DNA from: a bacterium
Lineage (GTDB): Bacteria > Thermosulfidibacterota > Thermosulfidibacteria > Thermosulfidibacterales > JALWSI01
DNA length: 24,308 nucleotides
Direction of reading: 5' to 3'
Assembly (NCBI GenBank): GCA_027080315.1
Contig: JALWSI010000095.1
Location: 1 to 24,308, forward strand
In this document: one piece after another, positions 4,561 through 21,086 of the stretch
Layout: each line of letters starts with the position of its first letter
Numbering within the stretch: the first letter of the stretch is position 1
Notes under the pieces: generated by a model
What the model saw: only the letters and a program-made list of their open reading frames with translations
The model's database searches: none
Told to the model about the DNA's origin: nothing
Position numbers and translations under genes: made by a program

Positions 4561-5949
4561 TTAGTGAAGGGGGTTGCCCATGATGCTGTGGGCAACCTCT
4601 TTTGCGTTCTTCACGCAGTCGTTGAGCCCGATGCCCCTGTAGGCGTTGCCCCCCAAAAAGAGCCCCCGCAGCTGCTTCAGGATCTCCTCAATTCTCTCAA
4701 GCCTCTTCTGGTGCCCCACAACGTACTGGGGTATGGCCTTTGGGTACCTGAACACCTCTGTGAAGAGGGGATCCGCTTCTATGCCCATGGTGATTCTTAC
4801 CCCCTCTTTTGCCAGCTCCATGAGCTCGTTATCCTCTTTCATAGCCAGCTCAGGCTGACGGGCCCCACCTATCATCACCCTTAGTAGCACCTTCTCTTCA
4901 GGGGCCCTGTTGGGGAAGATGGATGAGTCCCATAGTACCCCAAGAATGGGTAGCCTTTCGCCTCTGGGCACCAGTAGCCCGAAACCCTCTGGTCTGCCTA
5001 CCTCTGCTTTGCTGTATCCCAATGCCACCACCCCCATAGGGGCGTAGGGAATGGCCCCAAGTTCGTCAGCAAGGGAGGGGCTTAACCCTCTCACCATTGC
5101 GGCTGCGGCGTAGGCAGGGGCGGCTATGAGCACTTTTCTGGCCTCAAACCTCTTTCCCTTAGAGGTTAAAACCATAAACCCGTTTTTCTCCTTTTGTATG
5201 GATTCAACAGGACAACCGGTTAACACATTGTTTTTGAGCCTTTTTGAGATCTCCTTTGGCAAGAAGCCCACCCCGCTTTTAAAGGAGGTGAGCTCTCCCG
5301 ATGGTCCTGCAGGTCCTCCGGTTCTTCTACCCTCTCTCTTTCTCTCCCGTTTTAGGGCAATCATGCCCCTGATGAGGCCACCGTACTCTCGCTCAAGGTT
5401 GTGAATGGTGGGAAAGGTGCTCTTCAGGCTCACCTGATCCGGGTTTCCCGCATACACCCCTGCCACCATGGGATCCAAAAGCCTCTCCAAGACTTCTCTT
5501 CCCAGACGCCTTATGGCGAATATGGAGAGGCTCTCGTCCACCTCCCTCTTTAAGGGAGGCATAAAGAACTCCCCCAGCATCCTCAGCTTTCCCCAGGGAG
5601 AGAGGATGTTTGAGGCAAACAGGAACTTTACGGGGTTGAGGGGAATCTCCCGCAGCTTTCCCCCGGTGTAGATGAAACGCCTTCTGGTCTCGTCACTGCT
5701 GGGCAGCAGCTGGTCCTCTATTCCCAGCTCTCTGCATAGCTCAAGGGTGTGGGGCTTGTTGGTGAGAAATCCGTTGGGACCGTGCTCAACGATGAAGCCC
5801 TCATGGTAAGATGTCTGCATGGTTCCCCCCACCACAGGGGCGCCTTCGCACACAACCACCTTCCATTGGGGCCTCTCTTTGCCAACAAAATAGGCGGTGG
5901 TGAGCCCCGAGATTCCTGCCCCAACCACCAAGAGATCTACCTTATCCAT
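4561..5949 (-). CDS. hemY: Protoporphyrinogen oxidase, FAD-dependent HemY/PPOX type
   Basis: Oxidises protoporphyrinogen IX to protoporphyrin IX, the next-to-last step of classical haem synthesis. The N-terminus carries the FAD dinucleotide-binding motif VVGAGISGLTTAYF, followed by GGTMQTSYHEGFIVEHGPNGF, typical of the HemY/PPOX family. The C-terminal FAD-binding end is LGGNAYRGIGLNDC. Length (462 residues) fits the family. It is unrelated to the flavodoxin-like HemG of E. coli. I choose the ATG at 5949: AAGGAGG lies about 12 bases upstream, whereas an upstream TTG at 5958 is only three bases from it. The ATG overlaps the end of hemH by eight bases, so the two are translationally coupled and act in consecutive steps. 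Known HemY enzymes use oxygen, although some tolerate other acceptors, which is of interest if the host is anaerobic. Confidence 0.95.
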   Translation of the reverse strand: MDKVDLLVVGAGISGLTTAYFVGKERPQWKVVVCEGAPVVGGTMQTSYHEGFIVEHGPNGFLTNKPHTLELCRELGIEDQLLPSSDETRRRFIYTGGKLREIPLNPVKFLFASNILSPWGKLRMLGEFFMPPLKREVDESLSIFAIRRLGREVLERLLDPMVAGVYAGNPDQVSLKSTFPTIHNLEREYGGLIRGMIALKRERKREGRRTGGPAGPSGELTSFKSGVGFLPKEISKRLKNNVLTGCPVESIQKEKNGFMVLTSKGKRFEARKVLIAAPAYAAAAMVRGLSPSLADELGAIPYAPMGVVALGYSKAEVGRPEGFGLLVPRGERLPILGVLWDSSIFPNRAPEEKVLLRVMIGGARQPELAMKEDNELMELAKEGVRITMGIEADPLFTEVFRYPKAIPQYVVGHQKRLERIEEILKQLRGLFLGGNAYRGIGLNDCVKNAKEVAHSIMGNPLH

Positions 5950-6889
5950 CTTTATCAAAGGCCTCCTTCACCAGAGCGCTCCATCCTTCAATGAGCAGGG
6001 GATGGTCGTTCAGGGCATCCACCACCTGGTACCCTGAGAAGCCAAGCTCTTTGGCCAGCTCTGCGTAAACCATCTTCAGCTCGTAGAGGGTCTCAAAGTG
6101 CTCAGAGATGAAGGATACAGGCACCACCAAGACCCTGGGAACCCCTCTCGCCTTCAGCACCCTCAGGGCCTCTTCAACGCTTGGACCCAACCACTCAACA
6201 GGCCCCACGGCGCTCTGGTAGGCTATGGTGTGCTTTGGATGGCCCAGACGCTTCACTATTGACCTCACCGAGGCAAGCACCTGATTGGGATAGGGATCCC
6301 CCTTCTTCACCCACCTTTGGGGTATGCTATGGGCCGAAAAGAGCAGGTAGGGTTCCATCTCCATGTGGGGTGCTATCTGCTCCACCCAGGCCTCTATGAA
6401 GCCATCAAGGGTGCACCATTCCTCAATCTCTATGAGCTTGATCCCTCTCTTTTTCGCGGCGTTTTTAGCCATTTTCAAGGCAGAGGCTGTGGTGGTGTAA
6501 GAGAACTGGGGATAGAGTGGAAGCACCACCCCCTCTTCCACACCAGCCCTGCGTAGCCCGTCCATGGCCTCTTCAACCGAGGGTTTTGAGTACTGCATTC
6601 CAACAACCACAGGCAGGTTTGTGGCCCTTGAGAGGGCAGTGGCCTGCTTCTCTGAGATCTCTTTGAAGGGAGAGAACCCTATCTCTTTGTAGTGTCTGGC
6701 TACGTTGGGAGCCCTGAGGGTGGAGATAATGTATGCCAAGGGTATTCTAATGGCCTTTGGCAGGGGTAGGATGGAAGGATCTGAGAAGAGCTTACGCAAA
6801 AAGGGGCGTATCTCGGCTTTTTCGGATACGCCCCCCATTCCTACGAGAATGACGCCCCGTTTGGGGATGGCCTCTTTCTGGCTTTTCAA
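5942..6889 (-). CDS. hemH: Ferrochelatase
   Basis: Inserts ferrous iron into protoporphyrin IX (or coproporphyrin III in the alternative route) to form haem. The 315-residue length is normal for a bacterial enzyme. Visible signatures are the N-terminal GVILVGMGG, the metal-binding histidine in LLFSAHSIPQRW, YQSAVGPVEWLGPS, and the acidic active-site loop PVSFISEHFETLYE. No C-terminal membrane anchor is seen. The start is TTG at 6889, overlapping the TGA of the upstream lipoprotein gene as TTGA, a coupling like the common ATGA. The next gene, hemY, overlaps its end. Upstream hemE, often found in hemE-hemH-hemY operons, is absent here. The haem is needed by the window's multihaem cytochromes. 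Confidence 0.96.
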   Translation of the reverse strand: MKSQKEAIPKRGVILVGMGGVSEKAEIRPFLRKLFSDPSILPLPKAIRIPLAYIISTLRAPNVARHYKEIGFSPFKEISEKQATALSRATNLPVVVGMQYSKPSVEEAMDGLRRAGVEEGVVLPLYPQFSYTTTASALKMAKNAAKKRGIKLIEIEEWCTLDGFIEAWVEQIAPHMEMEPYLLFSAHSIPQRWVKKGDPYPNQVLASVRSIVKRLGHPKHTIAYQSAVGPVEWLGPSVEEALRVLKARGVPRVLVVPVSFISEHFETLYELKMVYAELAKELGFSGYQVVDALNDHPLLIEGWSALVKEAFDKDG

Positions 6890-9883: not shown

Positions 9884-11119
9884 ATGAGGAGGGTAGGAGT
9901 TTTTTTGCTGGCGTTGCTCTTCGTTGCAGCTGGGGTCTCAATTGCCCAGGCAAAGCCTTCCAGCTGTGAGGAGTGCCACAAGAAGGTGACTCCCGGAGCC
10001 GTGAAGGACTTCAACAGGGGTAAGATGTCAAAGTATCTCACCTGTAAGTCCTGCCACGGCAGCGCACATAACAGCGCTTCTGATGCTGCAAAGGCAGAGC
10101 TTCCAACCATTAGCACCTGTAAGAAGTGCCACAGCACACAGGTGAAGCAGTACATGAGCGGCAAGCACGCTTTGGGTCTGCTTCCCATCACCGCTTTCCC
10201 TGGCTTTGCCCACAAACAGCCAAAGGCATTTATTGCGGGACAGAAGGGCTGCAACGGGTGCCACAACCTTGGAATCACCGACGAGCATGTGAGGGACAAG
10301 ACAGAGTTCCGCAAGTACTACAAGTACGGAATGGATTGTCAAAACTGCCACACCCGCCATGCCTTTTCCAAGAAAGAGGCTCTTCAGCCCGAGGCATGCA
10401 ACAGCTGCCACACCGGGTTTGACCATGCCCAGTGGGAGTTCTGGTTCCACTCCAAGCATGGGGCTGCCTATGTGACAGATCGCAAAGCCCACAGAGGGCC
10501 CACCTGCCAGGATTGCCACATGCCCAACGGAAACCATAAGGTTATGACCGCCTGGGGATTCTTGGCTTTGAGATTGCCCGAGAGCGACAAGGAGTGGTTG
10601 GGCTACAGGGTGACAATCTTGAAGGCCCTTGGCGTGCTTGATGCCAATGGCAAGCCCACCAAGAGGCTTGAGCTTGTGAAGGCCGCAAACCTTGCCCGTC
10701 TGGACAAGAAGAGCTTTGATGAAGAGAGAGCCAGGATGCTGGCCAACTGTGAGAAGTGTCACTCTGCCACCTTTGCCAAAGAGAACCTTAAGAACGCAGA
10801 TCTCATGATAAAGGCGGCAGACAAGCTCTTTGCCGAGGCCATAGAAACTGTGGCTGGCCTATATCGTGATGGCATAATCAAGAAAAAGACCAATCAGGCC
10901 ACCTGGCCCTACCCCGACCTGCTCAACTTCTACGAGGTTGACACACACATTGAAGAGATCCTCTATGAGATGTTCATGGATCACCGTATGAAGACCTTCC
11001 AGGCCGCCTTCCACATCAATCCCGATTACACCACCTGGTACGGATACGCCAAGCTGAAGAAGGATCTGGTGGAGATCAAGGAGCTTGCAGCCCAGATGAG
11101 GAAAGAGGCTGGCAAGTAA
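9884..11119 (+). CDS. Octahaem c-type cytochrome, hydroxylamine oxidoreductase-like
   Basis: A 411-residue periplasmic electron-transfer or redox enzyme. Signal peptide residues 1-23 end at AQA. Eight CXXCH haem sites occur at 28-32, 54-58, 79-83, 123-127, 152-156, 172-176, 208-212 and 289-293, with many extra histidines as possible second ligands (H62, H95, H110, H135, H159, H181, H189, H192, H203, H218). The haem count, the long gap before the last haem and the helical C-terminus with HRMKTFQAAFH and PDYTTWYGYA (380-389) fit the HAO/octahaem family. Members oxidise hydroxylamine or hydrazine, or reduce nitrite/hydroxylamine. At 411 residues it is shorter than the Nitrosomonas enzyme (about 550). 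Whether it has the cross-linking tyrosine of true HAO cannot be judged without alignment, so direction and substrate remain open. AGGAGG lies seven bases before the ATG. No NapC/NrfH-type partner is adjacent. Confidence 0.85.
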   Translation: MRRVGVFLLALLFVAAGVSIAQAKPSSCEECHKKVTPGAVKDFNRGKMSKYLTCKSCHGSAHNSASDAAKAELPTISTCKKCHSTQVKQYMSGKHALGLLPITAFPGFAHKQPKAFIAGQKGCNGCHNLGITDEHVRDKTEFRKYYKYGMDCQNCHTRHAFSKKEALQPEACNSCHTGFDHAQWEFWFHSKHGAAYVTDRKAHRGPTCQDCHMPNGNHKVMTAWGFLALRLPESDKEWLGYRVTILKALGVLDANGKPTKRLELVKAANLARLDKKSFDEERARMLANCEKCHSATFAKENLKNADLMIKAADKLFAEAIETVAGLYRDGIIKKKTNQATWPYPDLLNFYEVDTHIEEILYEMFMDHRMKTFQAAFHINPDYTTWYGYAKLKKDLVEIKELAAQMRKEAGK

Positions 11120-12285: not shown

Positions 12286-12645
12286 ATGAGAAAGGGATTT
12301 TGGAAGGGTGCTCTGGTTGCGGTGATGTGTTTGGCCTTTGTGGGCGGTATCAGCACATTCGTCACTGCAGGTTCCAAGGGTGCGGCAACCTACACATTGG
12401 ACAAGTGCCAGAAGAGGAAGGCTCCTGTTGCCTTCAATCACGAGGCCCATCAGGGGCGTACCTCTTGCAAGACCTGCCATCACAAGATGGAGAAGGGTAA
12501 GGATGCAAGGGCATGCTTTGAGTGCCACAAGTGCAAGAAGGGAGCAGCTCCCTCGGCTGCATCTGCTTTCCACCACACTTGCAAGGGTTGCCACAAGAAA
12601 GAGCACAAGGGTCCCACCAAGTGTTCTGGTTGCCACAAGAAGTAG
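12286..12645 (+). CDS. Tetrahaem class III cytochrome c (c3 type)
   Basis: A small, very basic periplasmic electron carrier of 119 residues. Signal peptide 1-28 ends at VTA. Four CXXCH sites lie at 61-65, 77-81, 99-103 and 113-117. The order FNHEAH (52-55), then CKTCHH (61-66), matches cytochrome c3, where these extra histidines supply second axial ligands; H96/H97 and H107 are further candidates. In sulfate and metal reducers such proteins shuttle electrons from hydrogenases or formate dehydrogenases to membrane complexes. Many lysines suggest docking to acidic partners. The ATG follows AGGAGGTG by seven bases. It is monocistronic, judging by its own leader and terminator. With the octahaem cytochrome 1.2 kb upstream it may share a periplasmic electron pool, but this is inferred. 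Confidence 0.92.
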   Translation: MRKGFWKGALVAVMCLAFVGGISTFVTAGSKGAATYTLDKCQKRKAPVAFNHEAHQGRTSCKTCHHKMEKGKDARACFECHKCKKGAAPSAASAFHHTCKGCHKKEHKGPTKCSGCHKK

Positions 12646-12721: not shown

Positions 12722-15595
12722 TCAATCAAGTATGGGAGAGAGTGCCCTTTGTAGTTCTTTGAATGCCTCGCTGTAGTCAAAGTCTGGGCTCTCTTCTTCT
12801 GCCATCTTCTGGATCTTGAAGCATAGCTCAGAGAGGTTGACCATTCCAAGGTTTGCAAGCGAACCCTTAAGGGTGTGGGCAATGATGCGAAGTGAATGGT
12901 AGTCTCCTGCTTCTATGGCATTATACGCGTTACTAAGGTGTTTTGTTATGGATTTTCTGGCCACCTTTAAGAGTTCGTTTATGTCTTCTTCTCCTATCCC
13001 GTACGCATTGGATAGATGGGTTTTAACCTCCTCAATGGACACCACAAGAGAGTCCTTAGCCTCTTTTTTTGAGGGTGGTGCTTTGCTCTCGTGGCTGTGG
13101 ATGTCGTCCTGGTGGGCCATTCCGAGGAGATTCGCTATCACCTCTCTAACCTTGGAGATCTCTATGGGTTTAGAAAGATGGCCATTCATGCCTGCCTGAA
13201 AGCACCTCTCCTTATCCTCTTTGAAGGCATGGGCCGTCATTGCGACAATGGGGATCTGTTCTCCTTGCAACTTTGAGATGAGGGCTTCGGCGTCAAAGTT
13301 TGAAGAGCACCCTGTCTCTTCAAGGATTCTCGTTATGCCTCCTTTGTCTCCCTTCTCGCATGCCCTAAGAATCTTGGTGGCTGTTAGTCCGTCCATGTTG
13401 GGCATCTGGATATCCATGAATACGAGGTCAAACCCTTTCTCAGACAGTAGCCTCAGGGCCTCAACACCGTCTTTGGCCAGAGCCACCTTGTGTCCCTCTT
13501 TCTCAAGAAGGGTCTTTACCAGCATCTGGTTCATCTCAACGTCTTCAACCACCAGAATCTCAGCCGCCTTGTTTTCGGGCAGGCTATTGGAGACTTTCTC
13601 AGGGGATGCGGTCTTTACCTCTACCTCTTCAAAAGCGTTCTTTATCGCTTCAACCAGGGTTCTGGGAAACACCGGTTTTGCAACGCAGCCTCTAATGTTC
13701 TCCAGATGATGCTCTCCTGCCCATTCACAGCCCAGCATCTCCCAGGCCAACACTAAAATGTCGGTTTGTTTGTTGGTACGGCTTATTGTGGTGGCGAGTT
13801 TTTTGCTCATCACCTCTCCATCAATCAGAACCAGGAACCTCTTTTCTTCCCCACCTGCAGACATGTTCAGCAGCTCTTCCAGACTGGCAGGGCTTTTCTC
13901 GTAGTGCACATCAAACTCGTGCCTCTTCATGCAGTGGAGCAAAGGAGCGATTATCACCTCTTCTGGCGATATAAGAAAGATCTTTGTGGTAGAGGCTATC
14001 TCTTTACAGTTTTTAGCAAAGACCGGATCCTCCCATTCTACAATCTTTAGGGGAAGTTCAAAGTAGAAACTGCTTCCCTCTCCTTCTGCACTCTCCACCC
14101 ATATTCTTCCCCCCATCTTCTCAACGAAGTTCTTGCAGATAGAGAGCCCTAATCCCGTGCCTCCAAACTTTCTAACAATGGACCCGTCCGCTTGGGTGAA
14201 AGGGTTAAAGATTGAGGAGATCTTCTCTTCTGGTATCCCGATGCCCGTATCGGATACCCAGAATCTAAGGGTTGCAGAGGATTCGTTCTTGTCTATCACC
14301 GAGCATCCAAGAACCACCTCTCCTTCTGAGGTGAACTTGATAGCGTTATCAAGGAGGTTTCTAAGAATGTGTCCCAGTTTAACAGAGTCGCCTTCTACCT
14401 TGTAGGGAATGTCGGTCTCAGGGTCAAAACCCAACAGAAGACTCTTCTTTCTCGCAGAGGGGATGAACAACCTTATGGTCTCTTCTAATAGGGTCTCAAG
14501 GTCAAAGGGGTGCTGGTCAACCTCAATCCTTCCCGACTCTATCTTTGCCAGGTTTAGAATGTCGTTTATCAATATCAACAACGTGCTACCAGCAGATCTT
14601 ATGTTTGACAGGTAGCTTCTCTGTTCGGGACTCATGGGGGTCTCTTCAAGAAGCTGGGCAAGCCCAAGAATGGCGTTGAGGGGGGTCCTTAGCTCATGAC
14701 TCATGTTGGCAAGAAATTCGCTCTTTGCTTTGTTTGCTGCTTCTGCTTCCTCTTTTGCTTTTTTCAGGTTTTCTACTGCATCTTTTAGCTCTTTTGTCCT
14801 TTTTTCAACCTCTCTCTCAAGCTCCTCTCTATGGGCCTCCAGTTGACGGTCTCTCTTCTCTATCTGGCTGAGCATCTCGTTGAACCACTCCACCAACTCT
14901 CCTATCTCGTCGTTGCTAACCTTCTCTCCTCGCAGAGAGTAGTCTTGAGTGGCAGATACCTTCTTCATGGTTGTTGTCAAAGAGAGGATAGGCTGAGATA
15001 TGAAAGGCTGCATCTGCTCTGCCAAAAGGTAGGCGATCAATATGGAGAAAAGGAGCACAATGAGAGACACAATCAAAGTACTTTTTGTGGTGTGGTAGAG
15101 CTGAGAGAGGTTGCTTATGACCACAACGTCCCCTAAGTAGGCCGACTTGAATCTAACCTCAGAAACCCACTCCATTCTGCCTTCTTTCAAGGCCTCCCAT
15201 AAAGGCTCGGCCTTTCGCACCCTCTCTTTAAATCTATCTCTTTCTTCCTTAAGAACCTTCTCTATTTGAGATGGAGGGACATTGTTTTTGCTGTAAACCG
15301 CCAATATACGCCCATCTTCTGTGAAAACGGCTGCTGATGTGATGCTTTCAACGGCTTTAAGGCTGTTCAAGGTGTCCTGAGCGGCGGTCTTGTCATTAAA
15401 AGTTAGAGCTGCCACGCAGTTCTCGCCCATTACTTTGCTCAACGAAGAGAGATTCTCCACCATGGTCTGGTAAGATGTGAATAGTTCTACTAACAGAACC
15501 GAACCCACAGCCAGAAGAAGCACGGTTGTGCTTGTCAGCAGCATGATGAGGGTTAGTTTTGAGGAGATCCTCATGTTGGCGATAAGTCTTCTCAT
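12722..15595 (-). CDS. Hybrid sensor histidine kinase: CHASE8-like sensor, HAMP, kinase, two receivers, HPt
   Basis: A 957-residue inner-membrane kinase carrying a whole phosphorelay. TM1 is about 14-37; the periplasmic sensor about 38-170 ([18 protein letters not shown]) resembles the CHASE8 domain of YfiN; TM2 is about 172-193; HAMP about 194-248 is followed by a coiled coil to 290. HisKA has the phosphorylated His300 (SHELRTP); the ATPase has [13 protein letters not shown] (449-453) and GGTGLGLS (478-485). A first, degenerate receiver (about 537-657) keeps Asp592 and Lys640 but lacks the acidic pair. A second receiver (679-825) has E684/D685, Asp728 and Lys809, with an extra 30-35 residues around 745-778. 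A C-terminal HPt domain (855-957) has His907 in AHTLKGS. It has no DNA-binding output, so a separate response regulator must receive the signal. It is the last gene of the operon, three bases after the yfiR-like gene. Confidence 0.95.
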
Positions 15596-15598
15596 TCT

Positions 15599-16171
15599 CT
15601 ATTTTACCACCCTTTGTGAGAGCCTTAAAAGCTTTGAGCTTATGAAGATGCCCGCTTTTTGAGCTGATCTTAGGTTCACCTCAAACCGTATCTTACCCTC
15701 TATCCTTACCAGTCCTATCATCACACCGTTATCAACTGCTTCCGGAAGATCGCTAATGGTGAGTATACCATCTTTCTCACACCCTTTCACCATCTCCTTT
15801 ATTCTCTTTTCGCTCCCATTTGCCAAGAACAGCACCTGGCATGCCTTTGGATCGCAGTGAACGGAGCACTCTTTTAACCGTATAACCTGGTCATTCACCC
15901 TTTTCCCCTCTAAGGATTTAAGGGCTTCTCCCATAGGAGAGTTACCTTCAATGCAGATGGTGATCTCAGAGCTATCTTTAGGTAGCCTCACGAACTTTAA
16001 AAAGTTGTACACAAAGGCCGCCTTTAGGAGGTGTTCTTTGGTGACAGGCTCTTTTGCCATGAGGGGCTGAGAGAAGTAGGGGGTTACCCCCATAAGGATC
16101 CCCAAGATTATGGAGAGCATGAGGCCTTTTTCACCCCTGCTTAGTTTTTTACTGCCTCTGTTCAGAACCAT
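15599..16171 (-). CDS. YfiR family (DUF4154) periplasmic regulator
   Basis: A 190-residue protein with an N-terminal hydrophobic segment (about 17-39, cleavage near LMAK) and a YfiR/DUF4154 domain. Visible are LKAAFVYNFLKFVRLP (49-64), ITICIEG (70-76), the Cys-rich CSVHCDPKAC (102-111) and the C-terminal GVMIGLVRIEGKIRFEVNL with RSAQKAGIFISSKLLRL. In Pseudomonas, YfiR sits in the periplasm and represses the diguanylate cyclase YfiN by binding its periplasmic sensor, responding to redox and envelope signals through disulphides. Cys73, 102, 106, 111 and 131 here could play that part. The gene overlaps the end of the second receptor gene by ten bases and precedes the kinase gene by three, so the simplest inference is that it controls that kinase's YfiN-like sensor. 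Confidence 0.88.
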   Translation of the reverse strand: MVLNRGSKKLSRGEKGLMLSIILGILMGVTPYFSQPLMAKEPVTKEHLLKAAFVYNFLKFVRLPKDSSEITICIEGNSPMGEALKSLEGKRVNDQVIRLKECSVHCDPKACQVLFLANGSEKRIKEMVKGCEKDGILTISDLPEAVDNGVMIGLVRIEGKIRFEVNLRSAQKAGIFISSKLLRLSQRVVK

Positions 16172-18207
16172 ACCGACACCTTTGCATAGATGCTTCTTTC
16201 AACCTCTGATGGGGGCTGTTCAGCCAGCAGGGGGGTTAGCTCCAAATGGTGATTGTCAAATAGGTTCCTGCCTACAAGGGAGATCTCCAGGTTATTAGTG
16301 GGTCTCCATCCTATGCGAGCGTCAAAGGCCACATAGGAGTTCACTTTGTACGTGCGGCTGACATACCTGAGCCACCAGTCCAGCTCTAACCCATGGGGCA
16401 GGTCCATTAAGGACCTTACAGAAAGCTGATGTTGTGGGGTTTTATGCTCTTCAATATCCTCATCGTAAAGCTTAAAGAGGTTACTGTGGTTGGACCACAG
16501 GTGCATGTGGGTGTAGGTGTAAGCGGGTTTAATGGTCCACCAAGGGGTGACCTTTATGTTAGAAGAGACCTCTGCACCGTACACCTCACCATCCATAAGG
16601 TTAGAGACAGTTACGGGATACTCAAGGTGTGGAATAGGGCCTTGTTTGAACCTCACCTTTGAGGGTGCTTTTAGTCCTATTAGATGGTTGTAGTTGTTGT
16701 AGTAAAAGGCCAGATCAAGGTCTATTCTGGGAGAGATAGAGAGCCTTGCTCCTAACTCGTAGGCCCAAAGATCCTCAGAGACCAGATCCTGGTCTCCTTT
16801 GAGAGGTATTTGGAAAGCGAAGGGCCTATTGGGAGTTGGACCGTAGAACATACCGCACCACCTCATGTCCTGAGTGAGCATGTCAGGGGTGTGAACAGCC
16901 CTTGAGACTGCCCCCCACAGGCTTATCTTCTTGCTCACCTTGAGCAAGGCCCTGAAAGAAGGCTGAACCTCCCAGTCTGTGTAGTGGTTATGCTCAAACT
17001 TTGAACCCAGAGTTAGGATCAACCGGTCTTTCATGAGAGAGATCTTGTCTTGAATAAAGAGATTAAATGTCTCGTCCTTACGGTGGGGATTCTCAAAGGC
17101 CATGTACCACTTGGCGTCCACATCCTCGTCATCAAGGCGGTATCCAGCACCAACCATCAAAGAATGGTGCTTTATGGGAGAGAATAGGTACTGAGCCTCA
17201 ATGTCAAAAGTGTCAACCCTGCTGTTAAAGTCGTATCGGTTCCAATCTGAGTACTGGTAGTACGATCTTAGAGAGAAGGTGGAACCGTTGGAGAGATGAT
17301 GGGTCCATTTTAAATTGATATCTCCATTGCTTATGTTCATGTGGCTGTTGTGTCTTGTTTTGTAGGGAGGATAATAGGAGTAGATATTTCTTGAGGTTGC
17401 CTGTCTGCTCCAGTACAGGTCTCCAAAAAGAGAGACCTCATCATTGGTGCCATACCAGTCAACTCTGCCGCCCCCTCTGTAATCGTACCAGTCGTCTTTA
17501 GTTTTGAAACTGGAGGTACCTGCAGAGCTGTCTCTGCTTATTCCATTGAGATAAAGCCTGTAAAAGGTGTTATCACCCACCCTTCCGCCATATCTAAGAT
17601 ATCCAAATCCCCTCTCTTCGTTGCCTCCTCCAAACGAAAGGTGCAGACCTTGTGTGTCTTCTGCCTTCTTGGTGATTATGTTGATTATCCCGTTTACCGC
17701 GTTGGCGCCCCACACTGCCCCTCCGGGACCTCTAACCACCTCTATCCTTTCTATCTCTTCAAGGGGAATGTCGTTCTCACTCCAGTTCACTGTGGGGAAG
17801 ATGGCAGAGTAAACGCTTCTTCCATCAATGAGGAGCAGTATCTTGCTGGTGTAGTACTCTTCATTGAACCCTCTTATGCTAACGGCCCATGTGTTAGAGT
17901 ATCCCTGTGCAACATCTACTCCGGGAACCATCCTGAGCAGATCGGCCACATGGGTGGCCCCTGAGCGGCGGATGTCCTCCTGGGTGATAACGAAGACCGC
18001 TGCAGCCGTATCTTTCAGGCTCTGGGGCCTCTTGAAGGCCGAGGTGACCTCTATGTTCATGAGGTCCTCCAGACCCATAGAGAGATAACGGTTGTACAAT
18101 GTCTTTGCCTTTGCTGCTCCGCAGAAGAGCAGGGTGAAGAAGATCCCCAAGGCTCCGTATAGGCAGCCATGCATAAAGAGGTTGGAATGTCTCAAACCCA
18201 TGTTCAT
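16162..18207 (-). CDS. TonB-dependent outer-membrane receptor (second of a tandem pair)
   Basis: A 681-residue outer-membrane barrel receptor. Signal peptide residues 1-34 end at AKA. A leading segment MGLEDLMNIEVTSA (44-57) may hold the TonB box. The plug domain (about 60-175) has AAAVFVITQEDIRRSGA, LLRMVPGVDVAQ, WAVSIRGFNEEY, LIDGRSVYSA and IERIEVVRGPGGAVWGANAV. The rest is a 22-strand-type barrel ending in YAKVSVWF, with the terminal Phe used by the BAM machinery. The substrate is unknown; no siderophore or cobalamin genes are nearby. It is a clear paralogue of the preceding gene, which ends four bases upstream, and it overlaps the yfiR-like gene. The absence of an N-terminal signalling (STN/FecA-type) extension argues against anti-sigma signalling. 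The ATG at 18207 has GGAG about 11 bases upstream. Confidence 0.95.
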   Translation of the reverse strand: MNMGLRHSNLFMHGCLYGALGIFFTLLFCGAAKAKTLYNRYLSMGLEDLMNIEVTSAFKRPQSLKDTAAAVFVITQEDIRRSGATHVADLLRMVPGVDVAQGYSNTWAVSIRGFNEEYYTSKILLLIDGRSVYSAIFPTVNWSENDIPLEEIERIEVVRGPGGAVWGANAVNGIINIITKKAEDTQGLHLSFGGGNEERGFGYLRYGGRVGDNTFYRLYLNGISRDSSAGTSSFKTKDDWYDYRGGGRVDWYGTNDEVSLFGDLYWSRQATSRNIYSYYPPYKTRHNSHMNISNGDINLKWTHHLSNGSTFSLRSYYQYSDWNRYDFNSRVDTFDIEAQYLFSPIKHHSLMVGAGYRLDDEDVDAKWYMAFENPHRKDETFNLFIQDKISLMKDRLILTLGSKFEHNHYTDWEVQPSFRALLKVSKKISLWGAVSRAVHTPDMLTQDMRWCGMFYGPTPNRPFAFQIPLKGDQDLVSEDLWAYELGARLSISPRIDLDLAFYYNNYNHLIGLKAPSKVRFKQGPIPHLEYPVTVSNLMDGEVYGAEVSSNIKVTPWWTIKPAYTYTHMHLWSNHSNLFKLYDEDIEEHKTPQHQLSVRSLMDLPHGLELDWWLRYVSRTYKVNSYVAFDARIGWRPTNNLEISLVGRNLFDNHHLELTPLLAEQPPSEVERSIYAKVSVWF

Positions 18208-18211
18208 CTAT

Positions 18212-20281
18212 TCAGAATCTCCATGTGATCTTTCCAAAGAAGCTGCGTTCCACCTCGCCTATTCCCTGTGTTGTAATGTTTGGTCTAAACTCCGGATGTC
18301 TGTTGTCAAGCAGGTTGAAGCCGGACAACGACACCTCAAGATTCTTTAAAGGTTTCCACAGGATAGTGGCGTCCACTGCGAAATAAGATGGGATCCCATT
18401 TCCCCACAGGTTATCTGAATACCTAAACCAGGTGTTCAGAGAGAGTTTTGAAGAGATGTCCATGCTTGAGCGAAGAGAGAACTGGTGACGAGGCATTCTG
18501 CCTTCTTCTTCATTTTCGGGGAATAGTTGGGAAAAGGTCTTGTGAGAGTAATGTAGAAACATTCTGCCAAAGGTGAAGGCTCCTTGAAGCCTCCACCAGG
18601 GGGTGATCTCAAAATTAGCTACAGACTCAAATCCGTAGCTTTCTGCATCTCCTAAGTTGTCAAACGCTCCCTCTGCCTGAAGGTGAGGAACAGGCTCGAA
18701 ACTTATGCCTTTATAAACGGGGGTTCTGACGGCTAAGAGTTTTCTGTATTTGTTGAAATATAGCGAAGCGCTAAGGGTGAATCTTTTAGAGACCTTACTT
18801 CTTATGCCTGCTTCGTACGCCACCACCGTTTCGCTATCCAGATGTCTGCTTCCTTTTCCTATTAGTGCCAAAGGGAGAGGCCTGCTCGTACCTTTTGGAG
18901 GCAAGGTTGTAAAGAGATAAGAGATGCTTTCTCTGCCGAAGTCTGGGGTTCTTACGGCTCTTGATACTGCGGCCCACAGACTCGTGGAGGTTGTGAGGTG
19001 CCATAGAAGCCTTGCGGTAGGTTGAATCTCCCAATCGGTGAATGGATTGTGGCTAAATCTGGATCCAAGTGTCAGCTTTAACTTAGGAGTGAAACCAATC
19101 TCGTCCTGAAAGTACAGACTGTAGAAGTGGTCCCTTCTCTTGGCCGGGTAAAAGCCTATCTGACAGGTGTTCAAAAAATGGGACCAAGTGTGGCGGTACT
19201 CTCCTCCAATGGTCATTAGGTGAATCCCCAAAGGCATTCTGTATTGAGCTTCAAGGTCTAATGTGTTGGAGACAAAAGAGTAGTTCTCGTACTTTCGTCC
19301 TTCGTTCCAGAAGTAGCCTTTTAGCATAAGCTGAGAGTCTTTGGAAAACTGGTGTTTCCAGGTTGCCATAAGATGTCCAGCATTGGCTCTCATCTTGTAT
19401 TTAAGCTCTTTTTGATACGGATACTTTAGGGTTGCAGTGAAATAGTCTTTACCTCTGTGGGATTTGATCAGGTCTCCTGTAAAGACAAGAGTGTCCTTAG
19501 GGGTAGGTTGTGAGTCTATTCTGATTCCTCCATTCAGGTAATTCCAGTCATCATTGGCAGAGCCATCCCAATTCCATTTAGATGAGTCTCCTTTTACTCC
19601 CTTTCCATAAATCCTGTAGAAGGTGTTGCTTCCTAGTTTTCCGCCGTATCTTAGAAAGAGAAGGTTTTCGTCTTCGTTGCCAATTCCGGAGGAAAGATAG
19701 AATCCCTGGGTATCTTTTGCGTTTTTGGTGATAATGTTCACTATGCCGTTAACAGCGTTTTCACCCCACAGGCTGCCGCCGGGACCACGGATCACCTCTA
19801 TGCGTTCAATGTTGTCAATGGGGATCAGGTGTTCGTCCCAGTAAACACCTGATGAGATAGGAGAGTATATGCTTCTTCCATCTATGAGCACCAACAATTT
19901 ATTTGCAAACTCCTCGTTGAATCCCCTTATGCTCACTGCCCAATTGTCGGCGTTTATCTTGGCAACCTGCACCCCTGGAACCATACGCAAAGCCTGAGGT
20001 ATGCTGGTGACCCCTGTGCGTTTCAGGTCATCCTGAGTGATCACAAAGACCGCTGCTGCGGTGTCTGAGAGGGGTTGCTGACGCTTTGAGGCAGAGGTGA
20101 CCTCAATCTGCATAAGCTGTTCAAGGCTCATGTTGAAATAGCTCTCTTTTGCAGGGGATTTGTAGGCAGAGCCAAGTAAGAGCAGTTGCACCATTAAGAC
20201 GAAGATGGCGAGTCTGCGAACCATAGCAACATTTGATAAGATGCCTCTGCACTTAATGCTCATGAAGGGTTTGTCACCCAT
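18212..20281 (-). CDS. TonB-dependent outer-membrane receptor (first of a tandem pair)
   Basis: A 689-residue receptor and the first gene of the four-gene operon. The signal anchor lies at about 21-40 after a longer N-tail; the ATG at 20281 is favoured by GGAGG in the leader, although Met20 would give a more usual signal peptide. MSLEQLMQIEVTSA (51-64) is the possible TonB-box region. The plug (about 67-180) has AAAVFVITQDDLKRTGV, ALRMVPGVQVAK, WAVSIRGFNEEF, LIDGRSIYSP and IERIEVIRGPGGSLWGENAV. The barrel ends in FGKITWRF. It shares domain order and many barrel motifs with the next gene, consistent with an old duplication and divergence. No strong promoter box is seen in the 112-base gap before it; a weak TTTACA with TACACA at 17-base spacing is the best I find. 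The ligand is unknown. Confidence 0.95.
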   Translation of the reverse strand: MGDKPFMSIKCRGILSNVAMVRRLAIFVLMVQLLLLGSAYKSPAKESYFNMSLEQLMQIEVTSASKRQQPLSDTAAAVFVITQDDLKRTGVTSIPQALRMVPGVQVAKINADNWAVSIRGFNEEFANKLLVLIDGRSIYSPISSGVYWDEHLIPIDNIERIEVIRGPGGSLWGENAVNGIVNIITKNAKDTQGFYLSSGIGNEDENLLFLRYGGKLGSNTFYRIYGKGVKGDSSKWNWDGSANDDWNYLNGGIRIDSQPTPKDTLVFTGDLIKSHRGKDYFTATLKYPYQKELKYKMRANAGHLMATWKHQFSKDSQLMLKGYFWNEGRKYENYSFVSNTLDLEAQYRMPLGIHLMTIGGEYRHTWSHFLNTCQIGFYPAKRRDHFYSLYFQDEIGFTPKLKLTLGSRFSHNPFTDWEIQPTARLLWHLTTSTSLWAAVSRAVRTPDFGRESISYLFTTLPPKGTSRPLPLALIGKGSRHLDSETVVAYEAGIRSKVSKRFTLSASLYFNKYRKLLAVRTPVYKGISFEPVPHLQAEGAFDNLGDAESYGFESVANFEITPWWRLQGAFTFGRMFLHYSHKTFSQLFPENEEEGRMPRHQFSLRSSMDISSKLSLNTWFRYSDNLWGNGIPSYFAVDATILWKPLKNLEVSLSGFNLLDNRHPEFRPNITTQGIGEVERSFFGKITWRF

Positions 20282-20393
20282 GGCAGCCTCCTCCCCTAAA
20301 AAACATTTAGCAGGCTCCTACAAACGCTCACAAACAGCAGCATGTGTAACAAAAGGGGGTGTGCCTGTAAATAGAAGAGAGGAGGATGGTTAT

Positions 20394-21026
20394 CTAAACA
20401 TATCTCATTTTGCATGATTCCAAAACCGCTGAGACTGCTTTAACCACTTTGGGGTGCAGATTCTCTGGGGGTAGCGTTGCATCCAGGATCACAACACTGG
20501 ATTCCCTCTGCCCCTCTTTCAAAAAACCCTCCCTAACCCTGCTGAAGAACTCTTCGTCTTCGCTCTCCAAACGATCCTCTTTACAGCCCAAACGAGAGCG
20601 CAGCTCTTCAACTGGCAGATCAAATAGAAGGGTTAGATCTGGTTTCAGTTGATCAACTGACCACCGGGTCACCACCTCAAACACCTCTTTTGAAAGGCCC
20701 CGGCCGTAGCACTGATAGGCTAAGGTTGAGAGATAGAACCTGTCGGTGAGCACCACCTGGCCCTTCTTAAGGGCCGGCAGTATAACCGTTTCAACGTGCT
20801 GGGCCCGGTCTGCAAGGTAGAGAAGCAGCTCGGCCTTGGGCACCGGACCTGGAGACATGTGAAGCAGAAGGCGGCGTATCTCTTCCCCCAGCGGAGTCCC
20901 TCCCGGCTCTTTGGTGGTGATGTGAGGAATTCCTTTTTTTTCAAGATGATGGGAGAGCATTGAGAGCTGGGTGGTCTTGCCGCAGCCGTCTATGCCCTCA
21001 AAGGCAATGAGAATTCCTCTTTTCAT
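20394..21026 (-). CDS. tmk: Thymidylate kinase
   Basis: Phosphorylates dTMP to dTDP for DNA synthesis. The P-loop is FEGIDGCGKTT close to the N-terminus, followed by TKEPGGTPLGEEIR, the substrate-binding LTDRFYLSTLAYQ and a LID region near RLGCKEDRLES. The 210-residue length fits the family. I choose the ATG at 21026, which gives the standard MKRGILIAFEG N-terminus; a GTG at 21047 would add seven residues but has no better ribosome site. Its neighbours argB and nnr on the same strand suggest a housekeeping operon, with a 60-base gap to argB. In other genomes tmk often sits beside holB; that gene is not seen here. Confidence 0.96.
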   Translation of the reverse strand: MKRGILIAFEGIDGCGKTTQLSMLSHHLEKKGIPHITTKEPGGTPLGEEIRRLLLHMSPGPVPKAELLLYLADRAQHVETVILPALKKGQVVLTDRFYLSTLAYQCYGRGLSKEVFEVVTRWSVDQLKPDLTLLFDLPVEELRSRLGCKEDRLESEDEEFFSRVREGFLKEGQRESSVVILDATLPPENLHPKVVKAVSAVLESCKMRYV

Positions 21027-21086
21027 GCTAAGTACGGTTCTCTTCACAGCTTAAGATGGCTCTTAACACCAAAAAGCCTTTCTATG

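Follow-up and report, generated by a model that had tools for sequence, protein, structure and literature searches.

A cluster of two TonB-dependent receptors, a YfiR-family protein and a CHASE8 hybrid kinase as a possible route from the outer membrane to a phosphorelay

We analyzed a window of 24,308 nucleotides (the whole stretch of DNA considered here) in which four minus-strand genes follow one another head to tail, from position 20281 down to 12722, in the order TonB receptor, TonB receptor, YfiR/DUF4154 protein and hybrid kinase. The intergenic spacings, in cluster order, are 4, -10 and 3 bases. A preliminary description had proposed this packing and these four products; the gene coordinates confirm the former, and each of the parts is backed by Pfam. 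The features referred to below are the following.

20394..21047, minus strand: thymidylate kinase gene (tmk), context only, the last gene of a conserved YjeF - amino-acid kinase - tmk string
20282..20393, no strand: gap of 112 bp between tmk and the cluster, the junction where same-order relatives are without the cluster
18212..20281, minus strand: TonB-dependent receptor, gene 1, 689 aa, with signal peptide, pre-plug motif MSLEQLMQIEVTSASKRQQ, plug and barrel (Pfam)
16162..18207, minus strand: TonB-dependent receptor, gene 2, 681 aa, with pre-plug motif MGLEDLMNIEVTSAFKRPQ (Pfam)
15599..16171, minus strand: YfiR/DUF4154 periplasmic protein, 190 aa, with signal peptide (Pfam, AlphaFold2 model)
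12722..15595, minus strand: hybrid kinase, 957 aa, with TM1, CHASE8, TM2, HAMP, HisKA, HATPase, degenerate REC, REC with insert, and HPt
15020..15490, minus strand: periplasmic CHASE8 sensor of the kinase, approximately residues 36-192, with the last part of TM1 and the first part of TM2

The two receptors are 42% identical over their length, and both carry the Pfam Plug and barrel domains (plug E about 1e-24). The ATG of the first is preceded by a ribosome-binding-site-like sequence, GGGGAGGAGG. A promoter and terminator scan returned promoter-like sites that were no more numerous than in shuffled sequence. Since ExbD genes were found in the host genome, the cluster receptors could be energised. 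No gene for YfiB, an OmpA-like lipoprotein, is present between positions 12722 and 21047.

We compared the locus with its counterparts in the same order. DUF4154 was found in none of the eight relatives, and the cluster is missing from all of them; those whose contigs are long enough retain the YjeF - amino-acid kinase - tmk string, next to which the cluster was not detected. The GC content of the cluster is 0.46-0.49, versus mostly 0.52-0.59 in the flanking genes, and the closest sensors to the window CHASE8 domain come from Deltaproteobacteria MAGs (48% identity to that of locus L132). From these sequence comparisons, the operon looks horizontally acquired in its host. Contamination of the contig is unlikely, as the flanking genes are about 42-73% identical to those of the order's other genomes and keep the same gene order. 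The absence from the eight relatives, the insertion next to a conserved gene string and the GC difference would also fit a recently acquired passenger that is non-functional or degenerate. We consider this very improbable, given four intact frames, the retention of catalytic residues and the tight gaps and overlaps. Beside the cluster, a radical SAM gene stands between genes for a multihaem cytochrome (9884-11119) and a small cytochrome c of class III (12286-12645); the cytochromes suggest an anaerobic redox lifestyle. Genes for a ferrochelatase (5942-6889) and an amine-oxidase family oxidoreductase (PPOX-like; 4561-5958) were also seen.

The assignment of the third product to the YfiR family, made at first from the letters of the DNA, proved sound. 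The protein matches DUF4154 (PF13689) with an E value of 1.4e-38 over profile positions 3-142 of 143, and when its AlphaFold2 model (mean pLDDT 86.9) was compared with the PDB by Foldseek, the best 15 matches were all YfiR (E about 1e-8 to 4e-7; top matches 4yn9/4yn7). The hydrophobic pocket of YfiR mostly stays hydrophobic across the YfiRs compared. In Pseudomonas aeruginosa YfiR, the Cys71-Cys110 pair is redox-active and the Cys145-Cys152 pair is essential for folding (PMC4655355). Cys73 and Cys111 of the window protein align with the former pair, which is kept in 73 of the 135 YfiRs from the loci, that of the window included. The latter is absent from the window protein and, among 137 sequences, occurs only in P. 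aeruginosa and E. coli; it is therefore a mark of the canonical YfiR subgroup, not of the family as a whole.

These cysteines bear on a reading in which YfiR itself would be the sensor of redox or envelope stress, through the Cys73-Cys111 disulfide and its folding state, while the kinase would report YfiR loss and the receptors would be regulated targets. In agreement with this reading, reduction destabilises P. aeruginosa YfiR (PMC4655355), the window protein has the equivalent of the redox-active pair, the folding-essential pair is confined to Pseudomonas and E. coli, and the multihaem and class III cytochrome genes lie nearby. However, the equivalent of Cys71 is missing in about half of the linked YfiRs, and we regard the reading as improbable. 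Redox as the general signal of the module was rejected, because the pair is missing in nearly half of the YfiRs.

The kinase had been credited with a CHASE8-type sensor followed by HAMP. Indeed, it matches the CHASE8 profile (PF17152; E 2.5e-16), and a model of residues 1-256, covering the sensor and HAMP (pLDDT 92.4), shows a LapD/WalK-like periplasmic PAS (Cache) fold between two transmembrane helices, with HAMP following. The best structural matches of the sensor model (Foldseek; VIA-align Z) were a WalK model (16.0), the LapD ortholog CdgS9 (10.9) and solved WalK sensors (approximately 10.7), and the sensor domains of LuxQ and WalK are among the closest solved folds. The predicted fold is thus not one unrelated to CHASE8; a LapD-like fold has been proposed for YfiN itself (PMC3838380). 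Mutations at YfiN positions 66-68 and 70 abolish YfiR control (PMC3838380). By alignment, these positions correspond to A62, A63, L64 and F66 of the window kinase, which together with D68 match the stretch 66-72 of YfiN, where YfiR-insensitive mutations cluster. Among the periplasmic columns of 120 CHASE8 proteins, F66 ranks first in conservation and D68 third. When all eight listed YfiR-insensitive sites were pooled, the conservation enrichment was modest (p 0.035).

The remaining Pfam matches of the kinase are HAMP (E 4e-6), HisKA (6e-22), HATPase (1.5e-31), REC (7e-28) and HPt (4e-11), and the catalytic motifs MSHELRTP (298), GTGLGL (479), LVFMDIQMP (724) and AHTLKGS (906) are kept. The output is therefore HisKA-HATPase-REC-HPt with conserved His, Asp and His, as in BarA-type tripartite hybrid kinases, from which the window protein differs in its sensor domain; no GGDEF output is present on it. 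The order HisKA-ATPase-REC-REC-HPt given in the preliminary description was right, but only the second REC is recognisable. The stretch of about residues 540-660 is missed by profiles and recognised only when aligned with the REC1 of relatives; in this degenerate first receiver the acidic pocket is lost (VDDN to ISPE), and only the Asp- and Lys-like positions are kept. The second REC is intact, with an insert of about 32 residues (approximately 748-780) that splits the Pfam match. A similarly split match was seen in hybrid kinases of the same genome on contigs C217, C184 and C193, which suggests that the insertion is lineage-specific.

To survey the gene order, we collected 60 YfiR neighbourhoods from a domain-wide genome collection and 80 named loci, which were annotated with custom-built profiles. 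The collection was scanned for YfiR with a 5-row alignment, as a 17-row alignment was too diverse. The domain-wide census comprises the 30 loci with YfiR at E < 1e-20, mostly one per genome; the named loci were picked by the sequence pattern KAAF[LV]YNF and are not an unbiased sample. In the census, YfiR stands next to a CHASE8 kinase in 22 of the 30 loci, next to a same-strand TonB receptor in 20 and next to both in 14, and CHASE8-GGDEF beside YfiR was found in none of the 30. The corresponding counts for the 80 named loci are 56, 52 and 33, with CHASE8-GGDEF in 10. Overall, the survey returned 94 YfiR-adjacent CHASE8 kinases versus 10 CHASE8-GGDEF proteins. Groups with the arrangement include Desulfobacterota, Myxococcota, Nitrospirota, Nitrospinota, Acidobacteria, Verrucomicrobia, Lentisphaerae, Schekmanbacteria, Omnitrophica, Armatimonadota and Proteobacteria. 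A YfiR-kinase locus was also found in Geomonas silvestris, a cultivable carrier (L206). The gene order is thus not limited to this strain, and its recurrence in dozens of genomes of other phyla places the four-gene cluster far beyond chance. This type of cluster is probably a common, barely described route for signals from outside to inside.

Several of the loci depart from this layout. Tandem receptor-YfiR arrays occur at L144, L163, L146 and L194 (Geobacter UBA698; Nitrosomonas and betaproteobacteria), as if several inputs fed one output: at L144 (Geobacter UBA698), two TonB-YfiR pairs stand ahead of one kinase, and at L163 the order YfiR, TonB, TonB, YfiR, TonB adjoins REC-GGDEF. In Marinobacter (L136, L138, L140, L145, L151, L158, L160, L166, L168, L170 and L175), YfiR is followed by a CHASE8 kinase, REC and REC-GGDEF, with no same-strand upstream TonB receptor. 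YfiR adjoins a chemoreceptor output at two loci, a CHASE8-HAMP-MCP protein at L195 (Verrucomicrobiota) and an MCP-like protein at L003 (genome G056). At L263 (G062:C1024), a receptor of the SLEELM type described below lies directly ahead of an HPt-bearing hybrid kinase with no YfiR, a possible YfiR-free version of the module. Natural fusions of YfiR to a receptor or to a kinase were not found among the loci analyzed.

In 20 of the 56 named kinase loci, the kinase has a REC-GGDEF gene at most 1 kb away, so that many such relays probably end in c-di-GMP. No REC-GGDEF gene is linked to the window cluster; the host genome encodes a REC-GGDEF-EAL protein (C193) and a REC-REC-GGDEF protein (C229), both unlinked, as candidate relay partners. 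On contig C193 of the host genome (G000), the REC-GGDEF-EAL gene (L210:4897-6684) is convergent with that of a 1270-residue HPt hybrid kinase (L210:6687-10499), a paralogue of the window kinase; the REC-GGDEF-EAL protein is a candidate shared partner.

The abundance of kinases bears on the proposal, made in the preliminary description, that a Yfi switch had been rewired to a phosphorelay. As a direction of change, this proposal is not supported. The kinase is the widespread form, and kinase, HPt, GGDEF-EAL and MCP outputs of YfiR, for the most part in modules lacking YfiB, were known from Malone et al. (2012; PMC3375315). In a tree of CHASE8 sensors, GGDEF outputs are scattered among kinases and need at least five changes, two of which are forced by well-supported branches; E. 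coli DgcN sits on a long branch and is poorly placed. Because kinases dominate, GGDEF outputs are scattered and several outputs were known, rewiring is the wrong framing. A direction from a GGDEF ancestor was rejected on these grounds, for a tree with no known root and weak deep branches, and on the same unrooted tree the reverse change, from kinase to GGDEF, is likewise not established. Malone et al. put forward the YfiR-PAS/HAMP core as a module of older origin that serves several outputs (PMC3375315). The kinase form of the YfiR module is in itself not new.

We then considered the receptors. Those adjacent to YfiR come from one subfamily and share a peptide, LSLEELMxIxVTSxSK, at about residues 40-65, between the signal sequence and the plug. 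Among 95 aligned receptors, its key Leu is conserved in 97%, Glu in 89% and Met/Leu in 92%. A third receptor of the host genome, which is not linked to YfiR, has the classical TonB-box-like EEVVVTATR instead. An STN/Secretin-like N-terminal domain is absent, as Pfam gives only Plug and barrel, with at most about 70 residues (signal peptide included) before the plug. Among the receptor matches listed, the genomes with a receptor of this subfamily nearly coincide with those that have DUF4154 (26 of 30 versus 7 of 357; p 5e-30). The co-occurrence query was built from YfiR-linked receptors; with the five genomes that supplied or hosted queries left out of the 387, the Fisher p, again among the matches listed, was 7e-25. 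Shared lifestyle or co-inheritance may account for this co-occurrence. Orphan copies (e.g., L245, L257 and L259) rule out that the motif is exclusive to YfiR-linked receptors. Together with the receptor-free YfiR-kinase pairs of Marinobacter, they indicate that neither strictly needs the other.

The TonB-YfiR input was also present in 8 of the 10 GGDEF loci of the named set. As it is the same for kinase and GGDEF outputs, the receptor and YfiR would both belong to the input. Distances in 71 triples correlate at 0.78 between YfiR and CHASE8, and at 0.45 and 0.50 between each of these and the receptor. As the sensor follows YfiR more closely than the receptor does, the receptor may be an exchangeable client and not a partner. 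These data allow an alternative in which the receptors only import a nutrient, e.g., a metal chelate, and the YfiR-kinase pair senses redox (Cys73-Cys111) or the imported substrate and regulates how the operon or other genes are expressed; their linkage would then reflect co-regulation, with no physical signal from receptor to YfiR. The tighter co-variation of YfiR and CHASE8, the receptor-free pairs of Marinobacter, the YfiR-less receptors carrying the motif and the redox-type cysteines in just over half of the YfiRs, including that of the window, all accord with it. We nevertheless find it doubtful, though far from negligible, as it leaves unexplained why the receptors belong to one subfamily with a near-invariant periplasmic peptide, and why this subfamily tracks DUF4154 across genomes.

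The reading that we favour over co-regulation, because of the common input in GGDEF loci and the close YfiR-CHASE8 correlation, is one in which the receptor takes the outer-membrane role of YfiB, YfiR acts as adaptor and the kinase is the output. In P. aeruginosa, YfiR forms a bridge from YfiN to the outer-membrane protein YfiB (PMC4655355); as it shuttles there between the sensor and an outer-membrane partner, and the receptors are the only candidates for such a partner here, this layout points to the receptor model. We infer this signalling path with about an even chance of its being right. The shared pre-plug peptide, the co-occurrence of the receptor subfamily with DUF4154, the conserved F66, the mostly hydrophobic YfiR pocket, the REC-GGDEF neighbours and the ExbD genes are also in line with it. 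Periplasmic YfiR would bind the CHASE8 sensor at its conserved A-A-L-x-F-x-D helix, for which contact-site conservation and the correlated divergence of the two proteins speak indirectly, and lock the kinase in one state, and a TonB receptor would fill the position held by YfiB in Pseudomonas. Ligand binding or transport would alter the exposure of the periplasm-facing LSLEELMxIxVTSxSK peptide, so that YfiR is captured or released. The freed kinase would autophosphorylate, and the phosphoryl group would travel via the second REC and HPt to a response regulator that is a protein of its own. For many relatives, the adjacent REC-GGDEF protein would have this role, with c-di-GMP often the output; for the window kinase, the regulator would be encoded by an unlinked gene.

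This layout can be set against known systems. In FecA-FecR-FecI and FpvA, an outer-membrane receptor is thought to signal via a periplasmic partner to an inner-membrane regulator, as proposed here; the window differs in having no STN domain, FecR or sigma factor, and a short peptide, YfiR and a histidine kinase instead. In LuxP-LuxQ and YycH-WalK, the state of a kinase is set by an extracytoplasmic partner protein. The LuxQ and WalK sensor folds are close to that of the window sensor, whereas the partners are LuxP and YycH rather than YfiR, and no TonB receptor is involved. YfiBNR (TpbB) of P. aeruginosa and YfiR-DgcN-YfiB of E. coli share with the window the YfiR fold, the CHASE8-HAMP sensor, the adjacency of YfiR and sensor, the sensor block AAxxFxD and a nearby gene for an outer-membrane third partner. 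Where these systems have GGDEF and the lipoprotein YfiB, the window has kinase, REC and HPt domains and TonB receptors, respectively, and its YfiR is without the Cys145-Cys152 pair. The divergent Yfi modules of Malone et al. (2012; PMC3375315) share with the window the conserved hydrophobic contact residues and a YfiR that adjoins a YfiN-type sensor with histidine kinase output, with no YfiB. In that paper, "TonB" has no occurrences, and the receptor subfamily and the pre-plug peptide are absent. Searches of the main texts of open-access papers found no description of a TonB receptor link to YfiR modules; the link, the receptor subfamily and the peptide appear to be new.

A broader proposal is that this TonB subfamily signals generally, by an undescribed mechanism, through the pre-plug peptide and YfiR to CHASE8 kinases, diguanylate cyclases and chemoreceptors, with YfiB-YfiN as a local variant in which a lipoprotein replaces the receptor. 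We put this forward tentatively, as somewhat short of even in likelihood. Most YfiR systems are without YfiB. For their signal and outer-membrane partner, a TonB subfamily that accompanies YfiR in many phyla provides a concrete candidate, together with a short peptide to mutate. The receptor link would give a function to a group of TonB receptors that is common, and, judging from how often a REC-GGDEF gene stands beside the kinase, c-di-GMP is probably still under the control of many such relays.
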